NCBI GenBank assembly: GCA_004376105.1
Contig: SOKA01000037.1
Location: 1 to 34,839 of the forward strand
From: Dehalococcoidia bacterium
GTDB taxonomy: Bacteria; Chloroflexota; Dehalococcoidia; Dehalococcoidales; E44-bin46
Direction of reading: 5' to 3'
Length of the DNA: 34,839 nt
This document shows positions 3,100 through 32,591 of the stretch, in pieces; position 1 is the stretch's first letter, and every line of letters begins with the position of its first letter. The position numbers and the translations under genes were made by a program. The notes below the pieces were generated by a model. The model had not been told where the DNA came from and searched no databases. It worked only from the letters and a program-made list of their open reading frames with translations.

Positions 3100-3861
3100 A
3101 TGAGCAAGTTTATACGTAAGTTAAGTCAGGCTTGGCAGAGTGGGCTCCAGCCTATGGGGTTTAGGGCGGGGCAATCGGGCTCACAAAGGCCCAAAATGCT
3201 GCTCATTGCCAGTTTGGCTCAGGTTAATGTTGATAGCTTGGCTGATTATGTGGCTGGGGCTGATGCTGGGCTGTTACGTATTTCCAAATTGAGCTCGGGA
3301 ACTGAAACCCTTAAAAAAATGTCTCAAGCTGTGCCTGATATTCCCTGGGGTGGGTGGCTAAGAGATATTAGCTGGGGAGAGATGAAGCCGATGAAGATGG
3401 TTGGTTGTGATTTTGTGGTTTTCCCGGCGGCTAATACCTCGTTGGCAATACTTCAAAATAGTGAAGTGGGTAAGATATTAGAGGTAGAGGCATCGCTCAG
3501 TGAAGGTTTGTTGAGGACAATTGATGAGTTACCTGTGGATGCCGTGCTTATCACTGGCGAACAGAAAGAGGATTATTTTCTTACTTGGCAGCATCTAATG
3601 CTCTTTTGGCGCTTTGCCGATTCGTTGGCTAAACCCTTGTTAGTCTCAGTACCATCAAGAGTGATGACTAACGAGCTTCAGGTGCTGTGGGAAGCGGGGG
3701 TGGGTGGTGTGATAGTGGAGGCAGGGGTTGGGGGATTAAAGGAGTTGCGACAGGCGATTGATAAATTAACCTTTCCCCCGCAACGTAGGCGGAGAAAGGC
3801 GGGGGCTTTGCTGCCTCACATTAGTGGTGCGGGGCCGGATGCAGCCACTGAAGAAGAGTAG
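3100..3861 (+). CDS. Conserved hypothetical protein, possible TIM-barrel-like fold
   Basis: 253-aa ORF with coding-like composition and alternating strand/helix segments. No family recognised. Confidence 0.65.
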   Translation: MSKFIRKLSQAWQSGLQPMGFRAGQSGSQRPKMLLIASLAQVNVDSLADYVAGADAGLLRISKLSSGTETLKKMSQAVPDIPWGGWLRDISWGEMKPMKMVGCDFVVFPAANTSLAILQNSEVGKILEVEASLSEGLLRTIDELPVDAVLITGEQKEDYFLTWQHLMLFWRFADSLAKPLLVSVPSRVMTNELQVLWEAGVGGVIVEAGVGGLKELRQAIDKLTFPPQRRRRKAGALLPHISGAGPDAATEEE

Positions 3862-4037
3862 TTTTTGTGCTCACCTCAACTAGTAGCCATCTCAAGCCTA
3901 AGGCTATTGCCGCCGAATTATCAAAAACTCCAGCTAAAGGGTAGACCTTTTTGTATTGTCTTTGGTAGACTCCTTTTGAGAATCATAATTGAGAATCGCA
4001 TGGTAATCGCGTCGTTTATAGCTTTTCTGGCCGGGGC

Positions 4038-4066
4038 TTGACAAATGGGTATACCTTTTGTATTAT
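4038..4066 (+). promoter_or_regulatory. Sigma70-type promoter (TTGACA-N17-TATTAT)
   Basis: TTGACA at 4038-4043, 17-nt spacer, TATTAT at 4061-4066, followed by AGGAGG and the ATG at 4096. Confidence 0.85.
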
Positions 4067-4095
4067 TTTTAGTAGACTATTTTTAGGAGGATGGT

Positions 4096-4449
4096 ATGGG
4101 TAAGCTTATCGTTTATAGTTTTAAGATTGAGAAAGAGCAGCTTGATCGTGCCAAGAGGTTTCTTGCCCGCCAGGGAGCACTGCTTCAGGACAGCTTGCGG
4201 GACTTTATTGAGGTCGCTGCTGATTGTGAGCAATGCCTTGAACTACATGAAGAAGAGGCATCAATTAGTGAATTGCAAAGTGCCTTCGCTACCCTTCTTG
4301 CCAAATCCAAGGATGCATGGTATCTGAATAGCCTTCTTCAGGAAGCGGTGATGAAGATAGCAAAGATGAGTAAAGTGCCTCTAGATTTTATTATGAATGT
4401 GCTGGGCGAGGCACGACGAGTTAAGCCGGTAGTGGTGCGCAGGATGTAG
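4096..4449 (+). CDS. Hypothetical protein, helix-rich, possible ribbon-helix-helix-like N-terminus
   Basis: 117-aa ORF with ribosome-binding site (TTTTAGGAGG) and a strong promoter. MGKLIVYSFKIEKEQLDRAKRFLARQGALLQDSLRDFIEVAA resembles a strand-helix-helix layout. Family not established. Confidence 0.7.
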   Translation: MGKLIVYSFKIEKEQLDRAKRFLARQGALLQDSLRDFIEVAADCEQCLELHEEEASISELQSAFATLLAKSKDAWYLNSLLQEAVMKIAKMSKVPLDFIMNVLGEARRVKPVVVRRM

Positions 4450-4505: not shown

Positions 4506-5186
4506 ATGGGGAAAGTAGCCATTAGTGCTGATTCTGTTTCCCTGACTCCAGAAAAGGCAAGGGAATATGGTTTTACCATGATTCCCTTGCCTATTATTAT
4601 GGGTGGTAAACAGTATCTGGATACAGAGATAAATATGGATGAGCTTTATGCCCGATTGGATACCAAGGAGAACCTGCCTAAGACCTCGACGGCTAATGTG
4701 GAGGAATTTTTGCGGTTTTTTGCTGAGCTCAGCCAGAAGGCAGAGGCTATCTTTCATATCTGTATGTCCTCAGTTTTTAGCCCCCAATATAATAACGCTT
4801 TAAAAGCTAAGGAACTGGCTGGTGAAAAATTACCGGGGACAAGGATTGAGGTGGCTGATTCACGCACAATAGGGATAGGGGTTCACTTCCTTTTCTATTA
4901 CGACAAGGGAGGCAGAGTATTTGAGGCTCGCACCTGGGCTGAAGCCGAGTCAGCAAGCAGCTTTAGGTCTATCGTTGAAGTTGACGCTTCCACGGGGGGA
5001 ACGGTGAAGCCCGTAGCCAGGGCTAAGACCGTAGCCCAGATAATGGATAAGCTGGTTGAGATAACCAAAGAAAGGGCTAACGGCAACAAGTTGTGTGCTG
5101 TCATCGGTCATACCAGAGTCCCTGACCGGGCTGAGAAGCTGAATGGTAAAGGGCTTATTGACTATACCTTCTCCACTAGGGCTTGA
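4506..5186 (+). CDS. DegV/FakB family protein, internally shortened paralog
   Basis: MGKVAISADSVSLTPEKAREYGFTMIPLPIIMGGKQYLDTEI..LPKTSTA..CMSSVFSPQYNNALKAKELA..YYDKGGRV..VDASTGGTVKP aligns with the 6206 and 7336 genes but lacks about 37 and about 26 internal residues. Confidence 0.85.
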   Translation: MGKVAISADSVSLTPEKAREYGFTMIPLPIIMGGKQYLDTEINMDELYARLDTKENLPKTSTANVEEFLRFFAELSQKAEAIFHICMSSVFSPQYNNALKAKELAGEKLPGTRIEVADSRTIGIGVHFLFYYDKGGRVFEARTWAEAESASSFRSIVEVDASTGGTVKPVARAKTVAQIMDKLVEITKERANGNKLCAVIGHTRVPDRAEKLNGKGLIDYTFSTRA

Positions 5187-5242
5187 TTAGGCTAGTTGTT
5201 TGCGACAATTAAGCTCTGTTTATCATCCGAAGGAGGTATCTC

Positions 5243-6193
5243 ATGGTCAGAGCTGACCAGAGGATAAGGATAGTGGTAGATGCTATGGGTGGTGATTATG
5301 CCCCTAGCGAGATAGTTAAGGGTGCGGTCTTGGCTGCGGAGAAAACTGACGTAGAGGTCGCCTTAGTTGGCCCTACAGATATCGTGGAAGCAGAGCTGGC
5401 TAAGTATGATGCCTCTCATTTACCCATTGGCTGTATCAGGGCTGATGAATTTATCAAAGAGGGTGAAAATCCGGCTCTAGCTGTGCGCCGCAAGCCTAAT
5501 GCCTCTATAGCGGTGGCGGCAAAGATGATGAAAGAAGGGGAGGCGGAGGGCTTAATTAGTGCCGGTCCTACAGGAGCAATAGTCGCCAGTGCCATCCAGT
5601 ATCTGGGTATGATGGAAGGGATAGAGCGTCCAGTAATCGGTGGGGCTATCTTTGATCCGGCTCCTAATACGGTAGTTTTTGATTGCGGGGTTAATATTGA
5701 TTGTAAGCCATATCACCTGTTAACCTTCGCCGTTGTCGGTTCTGTCTACTGTAAAAAGCTGTTGAATATCACTAATCCCACCATAGGTCTATTAAACATC
5801 GGCGCCGAGGAGAGTAAGGGTAATCAACTGACGAAGGAAACCTATCGTCTGCTACAGAGAAGCGGTTTGAATTTCATTGGCAACATAGAGGGCAACCAAA
5901 TCATGAGCGGGCGAGCCAATGTCCTTGTCTGTGATGCTTTTGTCGGTAATATACTGTTTAAGTTCGTTGAATCATTAGGCTTATTTAAAGACTCAGCCGG
6001 AAGGGACGAAAAACGTGACCTGGGTGGTGGTCTCATCTGGGGGGTTAATGGCATTGTCCGGAAGTTACACGGGTCTAGCCGAGCTCCTCATGTGGCGGTA
6101 AAGATAAATCATGTCAAGCAGGCGGTTGAAGTCGACCTGATAGGTGCCATCAAATCAGAGTTAACTACCATTATAAAGGAAATCAAATTATAA
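5243..6193 (+). CDS. plsX: Phosphate acyltransferase PlsX
   Basis: IRIVVDAMGGDYAPSEIVKGAVLAAE..VGP..ISAGPTGAIVASAIQYLGMMEGIERPVIGG..GNIEGNQIMSGRANVLVCDAFVGNILFKFVE. AAGGAGGT ribosome-binding site. Confidence 0.96.
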   Translation: MVRADQRIRIVVDAMGGDYAPSEIVKGAVLAAEKTDVEVALVGPTDIVEAELAKYDASHLPIGCIRADEFIKEGENPALAVRRKPNASIAVAAKMMKEGEAEGLISAGPTGAIVASAIQYLGMMEGIERPVIGGAIFDPAPNTVVFDCGVNIDCKPYHLLTFAVVGSVYCKKLLNITNPTIGLLNIGAEESKGNQLTKETYRLLQRSGLNFIGNIEGNQIMSGRANVLVCDAFVGNILFKFVESLGLFKDSAGRDEKRDLGGGLIWGVNGIVRKLHGSSRAPHVAVKINHVKQAVEVDLIGAIKSELTTIIKEIKL

Positions 6194-6205
6194 AAGGGGG
6201 TTAAT

Positions 6206-7072
6206 ATGAGAGAAGTAGCTATTATAGCCGAGAGTGTTGCTACCATAACACCAGAGGTAGCCCAAAAATATGACATCTCAGTGGTGCCCTTCCATATTAT
6301 AATGGATGGCAAGGACTATATAGAAACGGAGATAGATAAGGAACAGCTTTTTGCCCGACTTAGGAGTAAGGAAAACCTACCCACCACCTCACCTCCCTCT
6401 CCCGGAGAGTTCTTGGAATCCTTCACGAGGGCAAGCCAGCAGGCAAAGGCTATCTTAGTTGTTACCCTGACCTCTAGCTATTCCCAAGCCTATAATTCGG
6501 CACTAAACGCTAAAAAGTTGGCTCAGGAGCAATTACCCAACACCACCATTGAGGTATTGGACTCTCAGACTGTTGTCGGCGCCGAGATGCTTATTACCAT
6601 TGAGGCGGCAAAGGCAGCCAACGAAGGTAAAAGCCTCCCTGAAGTGACTGAAGTTGCCAATAAGATAAAGCAGCGTGTTTCCGAGTTTGCCCTGCGACCA
6701 TCTCTCTTTCACTTTGAGCACTACGGGAGAACGGGTAAGGCTAAAGGCTGGGCTAAGTCGGCAATCTCCACAGTAACCGTTCTAGAGACAGACGCCGCCA
6801 CTGGCGGTGCCGCCAAACCTGTATTAAGAGACAGAAAGCCAGCTAAGGCAGTAGAAGCTACGCTTGACCTCATAGAGGAAAGGACTAAAGGGAAGAGGTT
6901 GATTGCTGCCATAACCCATGTCAGTGTCCCTGATGAAGCTGAGAGGATAAAAAAGAAGCTATTGTCCCGGTTTAACCTAGCTGATGAAATTTATGTTTGC
7001 GAAATGCCCCCCATTGGTGCTGTTTTAAACGGAGAGGGCATAGTTGACATCGGATTCTACGCCGAGGATTGA
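6206..7072 (+). CDS. DegV/FakB family protein
   Basis: MREVAIIAESVATITPEVAQKYDISVVPFHIIMDGKDYIETEI..TTSPPSPGEF..TSSYSQAYNSALNAKKLA. Confidence 0.93.
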   Translation: MREVAIIAESVATITPEVAQKYDISVVPFHIIMDGKDYIETEIDKEQLFARLRSKENLPTTSPPSPGEFLESFTRASQQAKAILVVTLTSSYSQAYNSALNAKKLAQEQLPNTTIEVLDSQTVVGAEMLITIEAAKAANEGKSLPEVTEVANKIKQRVSEFALRPSLFHFEHYGRTGKAKGWAKSAISTVTVLETDAATGGAAKPVLRDRKPAKAVEATLDLIEERTKGKRLIAAITHVSVPDEAERIKKKLLSRFNLADEIYVCEMPPIGAVLNGEGIVDIGFYAED

Positions 7073-7091
7073 CCTGCCGCTAGGAGGTGAA

Positions 7092-7167
7092 CCTCTCCTT
7101 CAAAGGAGAGGGGGAGATATTAAAAAAGAGGGGCTTCGCCCCCCTTAGACAACCCCTTACCAAGGGG
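7092..7167. repeat. Dispersed intergenic two-hairpin repeat, copy 1
   Basis: CCTCTCCTTCAAAGGAGAGG palindrome (7092-7111), then AAGAGGGGCTTCGCCCCCCTT hairpin, then CCCCTTACCAAGGGG (7153-7167). Shares its core with the copies near 23575 and 33700. Confidence 0.8.
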
Positions 7168-7335
7168 AAGGACAAAAAGGGGGTTGAATTGGCAGTGATG
7201 AAAGCATTTTTAGGTGTAGCCTACGCTCTGGGGTTCTTTTTCCGTATATTGTGGTCGGTTATAGTCAGACGTCGGTAATAGAGGCTTCGCCTGCGTTCAA
7301 AAAAGACGTTGCGAGAGTGGCTTGAGGAGGCTAAT

Positions 7336-8208
7336 ATGAACAAAGTAGCTATTATGACTGATACCACTACCAACATGCCTCAAGAAATCGCTGATAAATA
7401 CAATATCAAACTAGTAGCTGCGGGCATTATTATGGATGGCAGGGCATATCCTGAAACTGAGATAAATCTAGCCGATTTTTATGAAAGATTACCCAAGTGG
7501 AAGGAAGCAGGAAATATGCCCACGTCTACAGCTGTCCCTGTAAGGGTTTTCTTAGAGGCATATCGCCAACTAAGCCAGAAGGCAGAGGCTATCTTGTATA
7601 TAAGTCAAAGTGTAAAGTTTAGCCTGTCACTAAATGCAGCGGTGCAGGCTAAAGCGATGGTTCAGGACGAGCTAGCTCAAACTGCTATTGAGGTGATTGA
7701 TTGTGGCACCGTTTGTGGAGCTGAGATGCTTATTGCCTTAGAAGCTGCCAGGGCTGCTGCCGCCGGTAAGAGCCTCTCCGAGGTGGTTGAAGTTACTCAC
7801 AATATGGTAAAAAATATCAACTATATTCTCCTATCTGATGACCTTTACTATTTAGCCAAGGGAGGCAGGATACATAGAGCCCGCCCCTGGGCAGCTTCTA
7901 AAATTACTAACACGGTGCTTCTGACAGTGAGTGCTGCCACCGGTGGGGAGCACAAACCCCTAGCCAGGTGTAGGACGAAAGGTCAAACACTGGAAACACT
8001 GTTTGATGTGGTGAGGCAGAGAAGTGGGGGGAAGAAACTATATGTTGCTATAGACCACGCTAATGTGCCTGCTGAAGCTGAAGAACTTAAACAAAAGGTA
8101 CTATCACAGTTCGAATGTGTAGAGGCTTTTATTAATCAGATTAGGCCGGTGGTAACTCTTCATACTGGTGTAGGGACTCGTATCTTTAGCTGGTGGGGTG
8201 AAGACTGA
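7336..8208 (+). CDS. DegV/FakB family protein
   Basis: ORF-track start 7309 is probably upstream of the true start. ATG at 7336 follows GAGGAGG: MNKVAIMTDTTTNMPQEIADKYNIKLVAAGIIMDGRAYPETEI..STAVPVRVFLEAY..LAKGGRIHRARPWAAS..HTGVG. Confidence 0.92.
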   Translation: MNKVAIMTDTTTNMPQEIADKYNIKLVAAGIIMDGRAYPETEINLADFYERLPKWKEAGNMPTSTAVPVRVFLEAYRQLSQKAEAILYISQSVKFSLSLNAAVQAKAMVQDELAQTAIEVIDCGTVCGAEMLIALEAARAAAAGKSLSEVVEVTHNMVKNINYILLSDDLYYLAKGGRIHRARPWAASKITNTVLLTVSAATGGEHKPLARCRTKGQTLETLFDVVRQRSGGKKLYVAIDHANVPAEAEELKQKVLSQFECVEAFINQIRPVVTLHTGVGTRIFSWWGED

Positions 8209-8253
8209 GGCAAATCAGGGGCTTGATTGGGTTAGTTGTTTACAATCTGCCCT

Positions 8254-9393
8254 CTAATGGGATGACAATTGCCACGATTTTCCTTCAGTGGTGATAGCCG
8301 GAGCAACCATCATCTCAACCTTATGCATTTCTTGGATGGTAAGTACACCGCAAATACCCATTGCCGTGCGAACAGCCCCGATAAGGTTTTGACTGCCATC
8401 GGTGACTGAAGTAGGACCGAAGAGAATTTGCTGTAGTGGACTAGTAGTGCCCACTTTTATTCGAGTTCCTCTGGGGAGTGCCGGGTGGGGGTGGGACATA
8501 CCCCAGTGATAACCCAGCCCTGGTGCTTCTTTGGCTTGAGCCAAAATGGAGCCTATCATTACCGCATCAGCACCGGCAGCCAAGGCTTTGCACAAATCTC
8601 CACCTTTACGAAAACCGCCGTCGGTAATTATCGGCACATATCTGCCGGACTCACGCCGGTATTCCTCTCTAGCCGCAGCACAATCCATAGTGGCTGTTAT
8701 CTGGGGGACACCGACGCCGAGGACTTCCCTAGTAGTGCAGGCAGCACCTGGTCCGACACCTACCAAGACCCCGGAGATTCCCGTTCTCATAAGCTCTAGA
8801 CAGGCATTATAGCTTACACAGTTACCAACGAGTATAGGCATAGGTATAGATTTACGAAGCTCGGAGAAGATTAGTCCACGATAGCTTTTAGATATATGCC
8901 GGGCACTGGTAACCGTGGACTGAACTACAAGAATATCAGCCTGAGCTTCAGCAACTATGGGAGCAAAGCGTTTGGTATTGGTTGGTGCCACAGAAACGGC
9001 GCATACTGCCCCTGACTTTTTAATGGCTTGTATTCGTTCGCCAATAAGGTTCTCCTTAATCGGTTGAGAATAGACCTTTTGGAGTAAAGGGGTAATTTCA
9101 GCATCAGGTGCTTGCGCAATTTCGGATAGTATTTCCTGGGGGTTATCATACCGAGTTTGCAGTCCTTCTAGGTTGAGAACAGCGAGCCCACCCAGCTTGC
9201 TCATCAGAATGGCGAAGTTGACATCGGTCACGGCATCCATTGCTGAAGCTATAACGGGGATAGACAAGGTAAAGCCCTCTATCTTGAAATCAATGTTTGT
9301 CTGGTCTGGGTTGACAGTTACATCTCCGGGCACTATAGCCACTTCATCAAATCCATAGGAACGCCGTAATTGCTTAAACTGAGGAGTAGCCAT
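8254..9393 (-). CDS. guaB3: GuaB3-type IMP dehydrogenase family protein (no CBS domains)
   Basis: IPVIASAMDAVTDVNFAILMSKLGGLAVLNLEG..GVLVGVGPGAACTTREVLGVGVPQITA..ITDGGFRKGGDLCKALAAGADAVMIGS. 379 aa, with the compact layout of the GuaB3 family. Confidence 0.9.
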   Translation of the reverse strand: MATPQFKQLRRSYGFDEVAIVPGDVTVNPDQTNIDFKIEGFTLSIPVIASAMDAVTDVNFAILMSKLGGLAVLNLEGLQTRYDNPQEILSEIAQAPDAEITPLLQKVYSQPIKENLIGERIQAIKKSGAVCAVSVAPTNTKRFAPIVAEAQADILVVQSTVTSARHISKSYRGLIFSELRKSIPMPILVGNCVSYNACLELMRTGISGVLVGVGPGAACTTREVLGVGVPQITATMDCAAAREEYRRESGRYVPIITDGGFRKGGDLCKALAAGADAVMIGSILAQAKEAPGLGYHWGMSHPHPALPRGTRIKVGTTSPLQQILFGPTSVTDGSQNLIGAVRTAMGICGVLTIQEMHKVEMMVAPAITTEGKSWQLSSH

Positions 9394-9615
9394 TTTTGTC
9401 CTTTCTTAAAAGGGAACTATATCAAAGGCAATAGTTCAAAGTCAAGGAACTTTAGTTGAGATTATTTAGCAACCTATCTAGTTTAATGATAGGCATCTTA
9501 TGAAGTCAGGCTAGCAATAACAAAATAGCCAAACACAACCCACTGATAGCTTTTTATCTAGTGACCGAGCTAGCTTATATTAATAACTCGGTTATTATTG
9601 TGGGCGGGGGTAGTT

Positions 9616-10479
9616 TTAATCTTGGCTATAAAATCCCAGTGATAAACAGCGTGGTCCACCTACCACACAGCCTACTGATGACCATTCCGTGATATGGAGT
9701 TCGCTGACTTCAAACTGGGAGAGGAGCTTCTTCTTTAATACTTCGGCTTCCTCAGGGTTGTTAGTATAGCCGATGGCTGCGTGTAGCTTCTTGTCCCCAC
9801 TTTTTTCCTTCACCATCTCCAGCAGTGCTTCTATTGCCTTAGCTTTAGTTCTATTCTTGGAGATGAATTTCCCTTTTCCGCCAGAGGCGGCATCCATTTC
9901 CAAAAGGGGGTATATCGGGATTGGAGCTTTGGCTATGCTCGGTTCTCCACCTGACCTCCCCGCTCTTTCAAGGAAGAATAGAGTCTCTGGCACATTCACA
10001 TAGGTTATCCGCTGCACTACCTGGTGAGCAATCTCAGTCACCTCGGATAGGCTCTTGCCTTCACTAGCTGCCCTGGCGGCAGCCAGGACGACAAGCAGCT
10101 CACCAGAGATAACGCTGCGGGAATCGACCACTTCAATGGCGGTATCGGGCAATTCCTGCTTGGCTGTCTCTTTAGCTTGCAGTGCCGCAGTATAGTCTAC
10201 GGACATAGTTGAGGACAATGAAATAAATAAGATGCCCTTTGCCTTTTGACTAGCTTTCTTATAGGCTTCCAGTATTTCACCTGTACTGCAAGCTGAGTGA
10301 GTAGGCAGGTTCTGGTAGGACTCAAGTCGGGCAAATAACTGCTCTCTATTAAAGGTGTTATCCAGGTAATCCTTGCCATCAAAGATGAGGTGGTAGGGTA
10401 GCACTATAACGTCATATTCCTCGGCTAGCTCTGGGGATGTGGAAGATAGGCTGTCAGTAATAACCATTACCTCTTTCAT
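9616..10479 (-). CDS. DegV/FakB family protein
   Basis: ATG at 10479 follows AAGGGGAG: MKEVMVITDSLSSTSPELAEEYDVIVLPYHLIFDGKDYLDNTF..LPTHSAC..SLSSTMSVDYTAALQAKE. The longer ORF-track start (10530) is less likely. Confidence 0.92.
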   Translation of the reverse strand: MKEVMVITDSLSSTSPELAEEYDVIVLPYHLIFDGKDYLDNTFNREQLFARLESYQNLPTHSACSTGEILEAYKKASQKAKGILFISLSSTMSVDYTAALQAKETAKQELPDTAIEVVDSRSVISGELLVVLAAARAASEGKSLSEVTEIAHQVVQRITYVNVPETLFFLERAGRSGGEPSIAKAPIPIYPLLEMDAASGGKGKFISKNRTKAKAIEALLEMVKEKSGDKKLHAAIGYTNNPEEAEVLKKKLLSQFEVSELHITEWSSVGCVVGGPRCLSLGFYSQD

Positions 10480-29499: not shown

Positions 29500-30813
29500 G
29501 TGAGTAAACCGATTGTGGCTATTATTGGTAGACAAAATGTAGGTAAATCTACCCTGCTCAATCGGATGGCGGGTAAGCCAATAGCCATTGTCGAGGATTT
29601 GCCGGGGACAACCCGTGACCGGGTAATGGCTAATGTTTCGTGGCAAGGGACTGAGTTTACTGTAGTTGATACCGGCGGTCTAGAATTAAAACCCCAGCCC
29701 ACTATCGGTCAGGGGGTTAAAGAGCAGGTAGAGATAGCTATTATTGAGGCTGATGTTATTATTTTTTTAGTGGATGTCAAGGATGGGGTAACGCCCTCTG
29801 ACCTGGAGATAGCTGATATGCTTCGTCGGGTAAGCAAACCCATGGTGTTAGTGGCTAATAAGGCGGATAATGAGAGGCTTGAAACCCAAGCGGTAGAATT
29901 TTATGAATTGGGGCTAGGTGAGCCGTTGGCGATTAGTGCCTATCATGGTCGGGGGATGGCTGAACTGCTGGATAGGGTTATCCCGCTATTACCAGCGCCA
30001 TCGGTGGTTGAGGCTGAGCCTGAGATTATGAAGGTGGCTATTGTTGGTCGACCTAATGTCGGTAAGTCGACGCTATTAAATGCCCTTTTGGGCGAAAAGC
30101 GAGCTATTGTTGATGAGAGTCCAGGGACTACCCGCGACGCTATAGATACTCTATTTGACTTTAGTGGGCAGAGTGTGTTACTTATTGATACCGCTGGTAT
30201 CAGGCGGCGGGGACGGCTAGGGGTGGGAGTGGGACGGTATAGTATAATCCGTGCCTTGCGAGCTATTGACCGGGCTGATATAGCCTTACTTGTTCTTGAT
30301 ACTACTGAGTTGGTTACGGCTCAAGATATGCATATTGCTGGTTATATTCAGCAAGCAGCTAAGGGGATTGTGCTGGTGGTTAATAAGTGGGACCTAGCTG
30401 AGGCTAAGAGCACAACTGAATGTAGTCGATACATCAGGAGCCAATTCAAGTTTATGTCTTATGCGCCAGTGCTGTATATTTCAGCTAAGTTTGGGCAGGG
30501 GGTAGACAAGGTTATGCCTCAGGTGTGTCAAGTATATGAGGAGAGGCTTAAGCGATTGCCTACCGCTGCCGTCAATAGTGTAGTTCAGCAGGCAGTAGCC
30601 GCGCACAGCTTACCCCGAAGGGGTAGCAAGCAGCTAAAGATTCGATATGCGACTCAAGCTGAAGTAAACCCGCCGACCTTTGTCTTTTTTGTTAATGATG
30701 CTAGTCTAATACATTTTTCCTATCAGCGCTACCTAGAGAATAAGCTGCGTCAGTCATTTGGCTTCGCTGGCACACCAATCCGTCTTGTCTTTAAAACTAG
30801 GGGTGAGCAATGA
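29500..30813 (+). CDS. der: Ribosome biogenesis GTPase Der (EngA)
   Basis: Two G domains (GRQNVGKSTLLNRMAG, GRPNVGKSTLLNALLG) and a KH-like C-terminus. GTG start at 29500 preceded by AGGGGGG. The track start 29455 is inside argF. Confidence 0.96.
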   Translation: MSKPIVAIIGRQNVGKSTLLNRMAGKPIAIVEDLPGTTRDRVMANVSWQGTEFTVVDTGGLELKPQPTIGQGVKEQVEIAIIEADVIIFLVDVKDGVTPSDLEIADMLRRVSKPMVLVANKADNERLETQAVEFYELGLGEPLAISAYHGRGMAELLDRVIPLLPAPSVVEAEPEIMKVAIVGRPNVGKSTLLNALLGEKRAIVDESPGTTRDAIDTLFDFSGQSVLLIDTAGIRRRGRLGVGVGRYSIIRALRAIDRADIALLVLDTTELVTAQDMHIAGYIQQAAKGIVLVVNKWDLAEAKSTTECSRYIRSQFKFMSYAPVLYISAKFGQGVDKVMPQVCQVYEERLKRLPTAAVNSVVQQAVAAHSLPRRGSKQLKIRYATQAEVNPPTFVFFVNDASLIHFSYQRYLENKLRQSFGFAGTPIRLVFKTRGEQ

Positions 30814-31517
30814 TAATCACCAAGTTTATTATGGTAGCGGTAATTGGTTACCTTTTGGGTTCTATCCCCTTTGGCTTACTGGTAAGCAGACGGGTGGGCA
30901 AGGTAGATGTCAGGCAGTATGGTAGTGGCAGGACAGGAGCGGCTAATGTGCTACGGATAGCCGGTGGCAAAGTGGCGGCTATGGTCCTTGGTCTAGACCT
31001 GTTAAAGGGGGCGCTGGCGGTAGTATTTGCTGGGTTAATAGTTGGTAGAGACTATCTGGTGGTAGGTGGTTTTGGCTGGGGAGTGCTAGTTGCCCAGGTT
31101 ATAGCTGCCCTAGCGGCAATGGCTGGACATAACCGGTCAGTATTTCTTAGGTTTCGTGGTGGTGGGAGGAGCGTCGCCACCTTTTTTGGTGGGTTACTTG
31201 CTTTATGCCCACCAGCAGCACTATTTGGCGGTGAGGTTTTTATTATCGGAACTGGCTTAACCAAGTTTGTATCCCTAGGCTCTATTGCTGGCGCAGTAAG
31301 TACCTATGCGATATTAGTCCCCCTCATTATTAGGAACAGATTCCCCATTGAGTATCTGGCTTATGCCTTAATAGGCACCATAGTAATTATGGTTATGCAT
31401 CGGGATAATATTGCCAGGTTAATGTCAGGCAAGGAGCGTAAGCTAGGCGATAAGGCTAAGGCAAAGGGTTTATCCTTGCCGACTAACCCCGAAAGCCAGG
31501 ATTCTCAGGGACCTTAA
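30810..31517 (+). CDS. plsY: Glycerol-3-phosphate acyltransferase PlsY
   Basis: YLLGSIPFGLLVSRRVGKVDVRQYGSGRTGAANVLRIAG..AAMAGHNRSVFLRFRGGGRSVATFFGGLL. ATGA overlap with der. Confidence 0.95.
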   Translation: MIITKFIMVAVIGYLLGSIPFGLLVSRRVGKVDVRQYGSGRTGAANVLRIAGGKVAAMVLGLDLLKGALAVVFAGLIVGRDYLVVGGFGWGVLVAQVIAALAAMAGHNRSVFLRFRGGGRSVATFFGGLLALCPPAALFGGEVFIIGTGLTKFVSLGSIAGAVSTYAILVPLIIRNRFPIEYLAYALIGTIVIMVMHRDNIARLMSGKERKLGDKAKAKGLSLPTNPESQDSQGP

Positions 31518-31538: not shown

Positions 31539-32591
31539 ATGCCCAAGATTGCCATCATTGGCACCACTTCTTGGGGAAAAACCCTGGGGGTGGTGTTAGC
31601 TCATAAGGGACTGCAGGTTAGGCTATGGGCACGGACTCAACGAGAAACCACTGAATTGAGAAGTGCCGGACCTAATCCTGCTCTGCTTCCTGGTATTACC
31701 TTTCCGCCTCAGCTATCTATTACCAGCTTGTTAGGCGAAGCATTAGCTGATGTAAAGGCAGTAATTCTGGCTGTGCCATCCGAGACTATGCGGCACAATA
31801 TAAGATTGGTTCAAGGTTATCTTAATGGGTCGATGATAGTAGTGAGCGCAGCTAAGGGCCTGGAGATAGGTAGCAGCAAACGCATGTCACAGGTAATTGC
31901 TGAAGAGATAGACCCTCGTTTTTGGTCTAATATTTGCGTGCTTTCCGGCCCCAATCTTTCCCGGGAGATTATTCGCGATTTACCAGCGGCTACGGTGGTG
32001 GCTGCTGAGGATGAAGCTGTAGCCAGAGAAGCCCAGAAGCTGTTAACAGCTCCTAACTTTTGTGTATATACCAATACTGATGTCATAGGTGTAGAACTGG
32101 GGGGGGCATTAAAAAATATCATTGCTCTGGGTGCTGGCATGGTTGATGGGCTAGGCTATGGCGATAATGCCAAGGCAGCCTTTATTACCCGCGGCCTAAT
32201 TGAGATAGCGGCTCTAGGGGTTGCTCTTGGGGCAAATCCTCTCACCTTTGTTGGGTTAGCTGGCTTTGGTGATTTAATAGCCACCTGTGCCAGCCCGTTG
32301 AGCCGTAACCACTATGTGGGGGTAGAGTTAGCCAAGGGGCGCTCGTTGAAGGAGATAACAGATTCGATGACCAGCGTGGCTGAGGGAGTAAATACTACTA
32401 TTGCTGCCTGGAACCTAGCTCGGCAGCTCGGGCTGGGGATGCCTATTACTGAAAAGATTTATCAAGTGCTATTTGAGGGTGTTGACCCTCGCCAGGCAGT
32501 GGATGAACTAATGGCGGCTGAGGGTAGGCATGAATTAGCTGGTCAGAAGTGGGAGCTGGTTTCCTTTTTCAGGCATCGGAGGCATTCCTGA
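31539..32591 (+). CDS. gpsA: Glycerol-3-phosphate dehydrogenase [NAD(P)+]
   Basis: IAIIGTTSWGKTLGVVLAHKGLQVRLWART..VSAAKGLEIGSSKRMSQVI..VLSGPNLSREI..GALKNIIALGAGMVDGLGYGDNAKAAFITRGLIEI. Confidence 0.95.
   Translation: MPKIAIIGTTSWGKTLGVVLAHKGLQVRLWARTQRETTELRSAGPNPALLPGITFPPQLSITSLLGEALADVKAVILAVPSETMRHNIRLVQGYLNGSMIVVSAAKGLEIGSSKRMSQVIAEEIDPRFWSNICVLSGPNLSREIIRDLPAATVVAAEDEAVAREAQKLLTAPNFCVYTNTDVIGVELGGALKNIIALGAGMVDGLGYGDNAKAAFITRGLIEIAALGVALGANPLTFVGLAGFGDLIATCASPLSRNHYVGVELAKGRSLKEITDSMTSVAEGVNTTIAAWNLARQLGLGMPITEKIYQVLFEGVDPRQAVDELMAAEGRHELAGQKWELVSFFRHRRHS

Follow-up and report, generated by a model that had tools for sequence, protein, structure and literature searches.

Why four genes for DegV/FakB-like proteins should crowd around a plsX gene is the question raised by the DNA considered here, a stretch of 34,839 nucleotides (the window) that forms contig C42 in the 0.98-Mb genome of a Dehalococcoidia bacterium, assembled in 91 contigs and judged 93% complete. 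In Firmicutes, FakB presents a bound fatty acid to FakA; the acyl-phosphate formed passes to PlsY or is converted by PlsX to acyl-acyl carrier protein (acyl-ACP) (PMC10146087, PMC12594616); one FakA is accompanied by two FakBs in Staphylococcus aureus, three in Streptococcus pneumoniae, and four in Enterococcus faecalis (PMC12594616). A first-pass annotation of the window proposed that its four DegV genes, found within 6 kb, may encode lipid-binding proteins that arose by local duplication, differ in acyl specificity, and feed PlsX and PlsY, possibly with no canonical FakA nearby. The clustering holds in coordinates, strands, and family matches (PF02645 for the DegV products, PF02504 for the PlsX between them), but the first gene, degV1, is truncated; degV2, degV3, and degV4 are intact. 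The reading tentatively preferred here, at somewhat less than an even chance, is that the cluster encodes lineage-specific FakB-type carriers served by a distant FakA, beside a PlsX paralog (PlsX2) that lacks its membrane stem and probably works off the membrane.

A Lineage-specific Clade of FakB-like Proteins

The four DegV proteins match PF02645 with E-values of 8e-32 to 1e-55 (111–190 bits, cut-off 27) and TIGR00762 with 115–204 bits (cut-off 99.7). They score far below the FakB1 equivalog NF038249 (37–97 bits versus 350) and are therefore not filed as FakB1. As first noticed from the sequence, all four share a motif, read as DASTGG, DAATGG, SAATGG, and DAASGG, in place of the canonical strand-turn of S. 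aureus FakB1 (SaFakB1; KPVLKFED-GKI), which is shorter by about 3 residues and whose KP is gone from most of the four. Depending on whether a strict or a loose pattern is applied, 18 to 27 of the 37 proteins of the clade described below carry the motif, as do 0 of 54 other DegV sequences.

In a tree of 91 sequences built with IQ-TREE, 88 of them from genomes of the order and 3 from solved structures, all four window proteins and their orthologs fall into one clade of 37 rows with support of 100/99, rather than into separate and distant clades, so that the lineage-specific clade first suggested by the motif is borne out by phylogeny. Support is the same after the motif columns are taken out, and the clade is thus not an artefact of the motif. 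It splits into groups around DegV1 (8 rows), DegV2 (6), DegV3 (12; 100/99), and DegV4 (7; 100/100) and a fifth group of 4, each with full or near-full support. In a profile search, 156 genomes of the order gave matches above 340 bits in families f1 and f37 only. Because each window DegV has its own ortholog group and every such group has members from both families, the duplications are placed before the split of f1 and f37, unless genes have passed between the families. Local duplication in a recent sense is rejected on these grounds; the oldest duplications could nonetheless have been local.

The truncated degV1 departs from its intact orthologs of about 289 amino acids (genome G002, L012:9023-10012, 67% identity; genome G058, L014:7265-8134, 60%) by two in-frame losses, of about 37 and about 25 codons when compared with the G002 ortholog, and its Pfam match spans only the N-terminal half. 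The remaining part has a ratio of nonsynonymous to synonymous substitution rates (dN/dS) of about 0.15–0.19. Decay, reshaping, and assembly error all fit, and a single assembly cannot discriminate among them. Several smaller features touch these genes. A 23-nucleotide direct repeat (91%) stands right after degV1 (5179–5201) and degV3 (8219–8241), possibly a trace of past exchange or duplication. The degV2 of the window is nearer to G058, of another family (82%, with a synonymous divergence, dS, of 0.27), than to its own family (68–70%, dS 0.4), which hints at gene exchange between families. DegV4 gives a weak match (E = 2e-5) to PF13684, a FakA-like C-terminal family, and a DegV next to plsX2 in G002 (L012 7074-8036) does likewise.

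When residues are mapped on SaFakB1, Arg173, needed for the kinase reaction, is kept at its position in all 37 clade members; at the position of Arg205, needed for binding FakA and the membrane (PMC9136124), most rows have Arg and most of the DegV1 group has Lys. Thr62 and Ser95, which with His270 are parts of the network around the carboxylate (PMC8892158), are mostly kept. An AlphaFold2 model of DegV2, confident by the predicted local distance difference test (pLDDT 95.4), has the two-domain FakB fold, with top PDB matches at a template modelling (TM) score of 0.87 to FakB2 in complex with FakA (7w7h chain E) and to FakB1 with palmitate (5uto). The predicted structure of this one copy is in keeping with the proposal that these are FakB-type lipid binders.

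A PlsX Paralog without Its Membrane Stem

The plsX gene of the cluster encodes a protein that scores above the cut-off of the plsX equivalog TIGR00182 in the best scoring (266.1 versus 243.4 bits), keeps the residues of the core that are invariant in the family (alignment of 28 PlsX sequences), and is modeled with the PlsX core fold (TM 0.83–0.86). What sets it apart follows the conserved GN...K...E segment: up to the GG(G/A) strand it has 14 residues against 40 in Bacillus subtilis PlsX. Alignments to PDB structures are interrupted at the same place, after chain position 240–242, and match again from about 272–275; in the model a low-confidence loop at about residues 246–261 occupies the position. 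The missing stretch is the α9-α10 stem, including the amphipathic peptide 253–261 responsible for the membrane placement of PlsX (PMC6702220, PMC10146087).

The same replacement, of 13–14 residues, is found in eight further PlsX2 proteins (G001, G002, G038, G058, G149, G152, and two loci of G153), and recurrence of the gap in nine loci and eight assemblies excludes an alignment or assembly artefact. PlsX2 sequences group with support of 100, nested among the PlsX proteins of the order. Among 106 PlsX proteins measured, loss down to 13–14 residues is confined to this group, and among the matches listed from 393 genomes drawn from the class, none is PlsX2-like in score outside f1 and f37. Partly shortened stems, with about 10–16 residues fewer than in B. 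subtilis, do occur in other Chloroflexota and in a Syntrophothermus and a Vicinamibacteria record (L031_2190, L059_9001, L067_6294; L214-L218), so that shortening as such is not unique to PlsX2; what is unusual is its extent. The dN/dS of PlsX2 is 0.15–0.24, similar to that of the full-length PlsX of the same genome (PlsX1), and a pseudogene is not favored. Because the stem for membrane insertion is gone, PlsX2 should be cytosolic and need a soluble donor of acyl-phosphate, and it probably works off the membrane. In B. subtilis PlsX, the substitution K257A in the membrane peptide abolishes localization to the membrane while the purified protein is normally active (PMC6702220).

FakA, PlsX1, and Gene Linkage

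That no canonical FakA is nearby is correct for the locus but not for the genome, where a full-length FakA is encoded on contig C46 (TIGR03599, 607.7 bits), the single Dak2-domain match found. A fifth DegV, on contig C45, has the top Pfam score of the five (264 bits) and keeps the usual LSGT, KP, and HIGPG motifs. PlsX1 is encoded on contig C75 beside a FabL/FabG-like reductase, fabF, and fabG. From this gene content, the organism has the parts for both de novo fatty-acid synthesis and the Fak route. The genes plsY and gpsA are in the window, as the first reading of it had stated.

The clade is repeatedly linked to genes of acyl transfer. A DegV gene flanks plsX2 in six of the nine plsX2 loci, and degV1 orthologs stand directly behind a second fabF in four f37 genomes (G149, G152, G153, and G154; L159, L158, L128, L130), with a divergent plsY-like gene on the other side in G152 and G153. 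Coupling to PlsX and PlsY, as originally proposed, gains from this linkage; it is also subtler than proposed, since the neighboring plsX is the stemless paralog and the full-length gene sits in a fab cluster elsewhere. In G038, a DegV copy beside plsX2 is broken by two stops (L013 7638-8489), and elsewhere in that genome a broken plsX is followed by an intact degV1 (L016 3521-4798). Where a DegV might be expected behind plsX2, a putative cyclase (PF04199) is encoded instead in G149, in G152, and at one locus of G153 (L099 10387-11025, L102 10266-10904).

A Possible Acyl-phosphate Route and Its Rivals

In the preferred reading, DegV2, DegV3, and DegV4 would each probably bind a long-chain acid within a FakB-like pocket and offer it to the one, distantly encoded FakA of the genome; the resulting acyl-phosphate would be turned into acyl-ACP by PlsX2. 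As a cytosolic enzyme, PlsX2 would receive acyl-phosphate from a soluble donor, most simply a neighboring FakB-like carrier, while full-length PlsX1 of the fab cluster would go on supplying PlsY at the membrane in the usual way. The gene degV1 would be a decaying or reshaped copy in this genome. The most specific form of the idea, a membrane-independent relay in which the carriers hand acyl-phosphate straight to a cytosolic PlsX2 that loads ACP, apart from the membrane-docked PlsX1-PlsY route, is rather unlikely when taken by itself.

Several observations weigh against carriers of this kind paired with PlsX2. The DegV2 and DegV4 groups have lost His270, and in DegV3 Ser95 is mostly Gly. The evidence from fold is a single model, that of DegV2, with no ligand in it. 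Three of the nine plsX2 loci (G149, G152, and contig C63 of G153) have no adjacent DegV, so the linkage is not obligatory. Finally, some sequences with partly shortened PlsX stems have no DegV beside them in the stretches examined, and stem length therefore varies independently.

An ordinary multi-FakB system, in which isoforms of different chain preference share one FakA, PlsX2 being a redundant duplicate, is the strongest competitor; unlikely in its own right, it is ranked nearly as likely as the preferred reading. One FakA with two to four FakBs is the usual arrangement in Firmicutes (PMC12594616), and the proximity of the genes would have arisen only because a plsX already lay between guaB3 and rsmI. 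In the f39 genomes G040 and G060, a full-length plsX with fabF and fabG behind it lies in the same neighborhood of orfA, guaB3, and rsmI (that of G040 also shares metG, ispB, and ftsH), and PlsX2 groups weakly (76) with these copies. The plsX at this site likely gave rise to PlsX2, with PlsX1 and its fab cluster persisting at another place, and such proximity can be inherited. Against a redundant duplicate, however, the stem replacement of 13–14 residues has been kept in two families under purifying selection, and DegV genes flank plsX2 outside the guaB3 locus as well (G002, G038, G058, G153).

It is less probable still that the DegV clade has ceased to work with FakA and that its members sense, chaperone, or store fatty acids or other lipids. 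A DegV adjoins fakA in f39 and f8 genomes and is gone from between fakA and recG in G000, G001, G058, and G151 (it is kept in G038), which favors this alternative; loss of His270 in two groups points the same way, as do the raised dN/dS values of degV2 and degV4, about 0.26–0.57 compared with 0.11–0.13 in guaB3, with low synonymous and high amino-acid divergence. Set against this are the invariance of the catalytic Arg173 position, the mostly conserved Arg205, and the retention of FakA itself in the genomes checked. Least probable is that PlsX2, rather than being a long-chain acyl-ACP enzyme, acts on short or branched acyl groups as a soluble phosphotransacylase with incidental DegV neighbors. 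Although it matches, over the region of the deletion, a model for glycine/sarcosine/betaine reductase component C (E = 5e-13) and shares its fold with phosphotransacetylases (TM about 0.65), it has 63% identity to the PlsX1 of its own genome, is nested among the PlsX of the order, and finds its best structural matches in PlsX.

Neighboring Genes and Upstream Signals

Upstream of the cluster lie two further conserved genes (Table 1). Orthologs of orfB, 63–88% identical, occur in nine loci (the window, L011, L013, L014, L099, L100, L102, L103, and L155), mostly ahead of plsX2, and show a dN/dS of about 0.14; in L155, from G151, orfB stands beside a DegV3-type gene and no plsX2 is present in the stretch fetched. 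Searches of Pfam, PHROGs, and PDB with orfB gave no confident match. Its N-terminal sequence resembles, by eye, a ribbon-helix-helix protein, and the product is possibly a small DNA-binding regulator. In nine genomes the DNA ahead of orfB contains a TTGACA and a -10-like element but otherwise does not align, and the TTGACA-N17-TATTAT of the window is accordingly listed as a putative promoter-like site. A candidate operator motif upstream of orfB, GTAKAC-N18-GTARAC, was dropped as a regulon signal: matches in the window with two mismatches are at chance level, and those in the whole genome are no better than a reversed control. The gene orfA is conserved (53–82%) in families f1, f37, and f39, where it lies close to guaB3 or xerC.

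Table 1. Features of the DegV-plsX2 cluster and related genes, in window coordinates
Feature	Position	Strand	Description
orfA	3100..3861		253-amino-acid protein without family match
orfB upstream region	4034..4095	+	TTGACA-N17-TATTAT promoter-like site (putative)
orfB	4096..4449	+	117 amino acids, no known family
degV1	4506..5186	+	Truncated DegV/FakB-like gene, 226 amino acids, two in-frame deletions
plsX2	5243..6193	+	Acyl-ACP:phosphate transacylase homolog without α9-α10 membrane stem; PF02504, E = 3e-77
degV2	6206..7072	+	Intact FakB-like, 288 amino acids; starts 12 bp past plsX2; PF02645, E = 1e-50
degV3	7336..8208	+	Intact FakB-like, 290 amino acids; PF02645, E = 1e-55
guaB3	8254..9393	-	Inosine monophosphate dehydrogenase-related; TIGR01304, 441 bits; syntenic marker, outside the module
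degV4	9616..10479	-	Intact FakB-like, 287 amino acids; PF02645, E = 1e-53
plsY	30810..31517	+	Acyl-phosphate:glycerol-3-phosphate acyltransferase; PF02660 and TIGR00023 above cut-off; same pathway, about 20 kb off
gpsA	31539..32591	+	Glycerol-3-phosphate dehydrogenase; PF07479, E = 1.5e-55; about 20 kb off

Comparison with Known Systems

Several FakBs per FakA are already known; the DegV clade and the stemless PlsX are variants of which no report was found in the open-access literature, a scope outside which most subscription papers fall. A 2023 review treats as unsettled whether PlsX leaves the membrane at all and which steps of catalysis require it to disengage (PMC10146087). If active, PlsX2 could show whether catalysis depends on the stem and whether soluble proteins can pass acyl-phosphate to one another. 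The DegV clade would carry the multi-FakB idea beyond Firmicutes, and its natural variants without His270 offer a way to test how FakB holds the carboxylate.

With solved FakB and DegV proteins (S. aureus FakB1, Streptococcus suis FakB2, and Thermus thermophilus DegV), the clade shares the fold (TM 0.87–0.90 for the DegV2 model), the PF02645 match, the Arg173 position, and, for the most part, Arg205, Thr62, and Ser95. It differs from them in sequence, at 17–24% identity, and in the turn DA(A/S)(T/S)GG, 3 residues longer, that replaces the KP strand-turn; the absence of His270 from DegV2 and DegV4, the location away from fakA, and the low FakB1 equivalog score set it further apart from FakB. 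PlsX2 resembles the PlsX of B. subtilis (6A1K) and E. faecalis (1U7N) in core fold, TIGR00182 assignment, and invariant residues, whereas the α9-α10 stem with its membrane-binding peptide has given way to a low-confidence loop. At the level of the whole system, the likeness to the multi-FakB systems of Firmicutes lies in one FakA with several FakB-like proteins per genome, but in this genome the additional copies make up a single private clade and are encoded next to or near a second plsX that is itself stemless.

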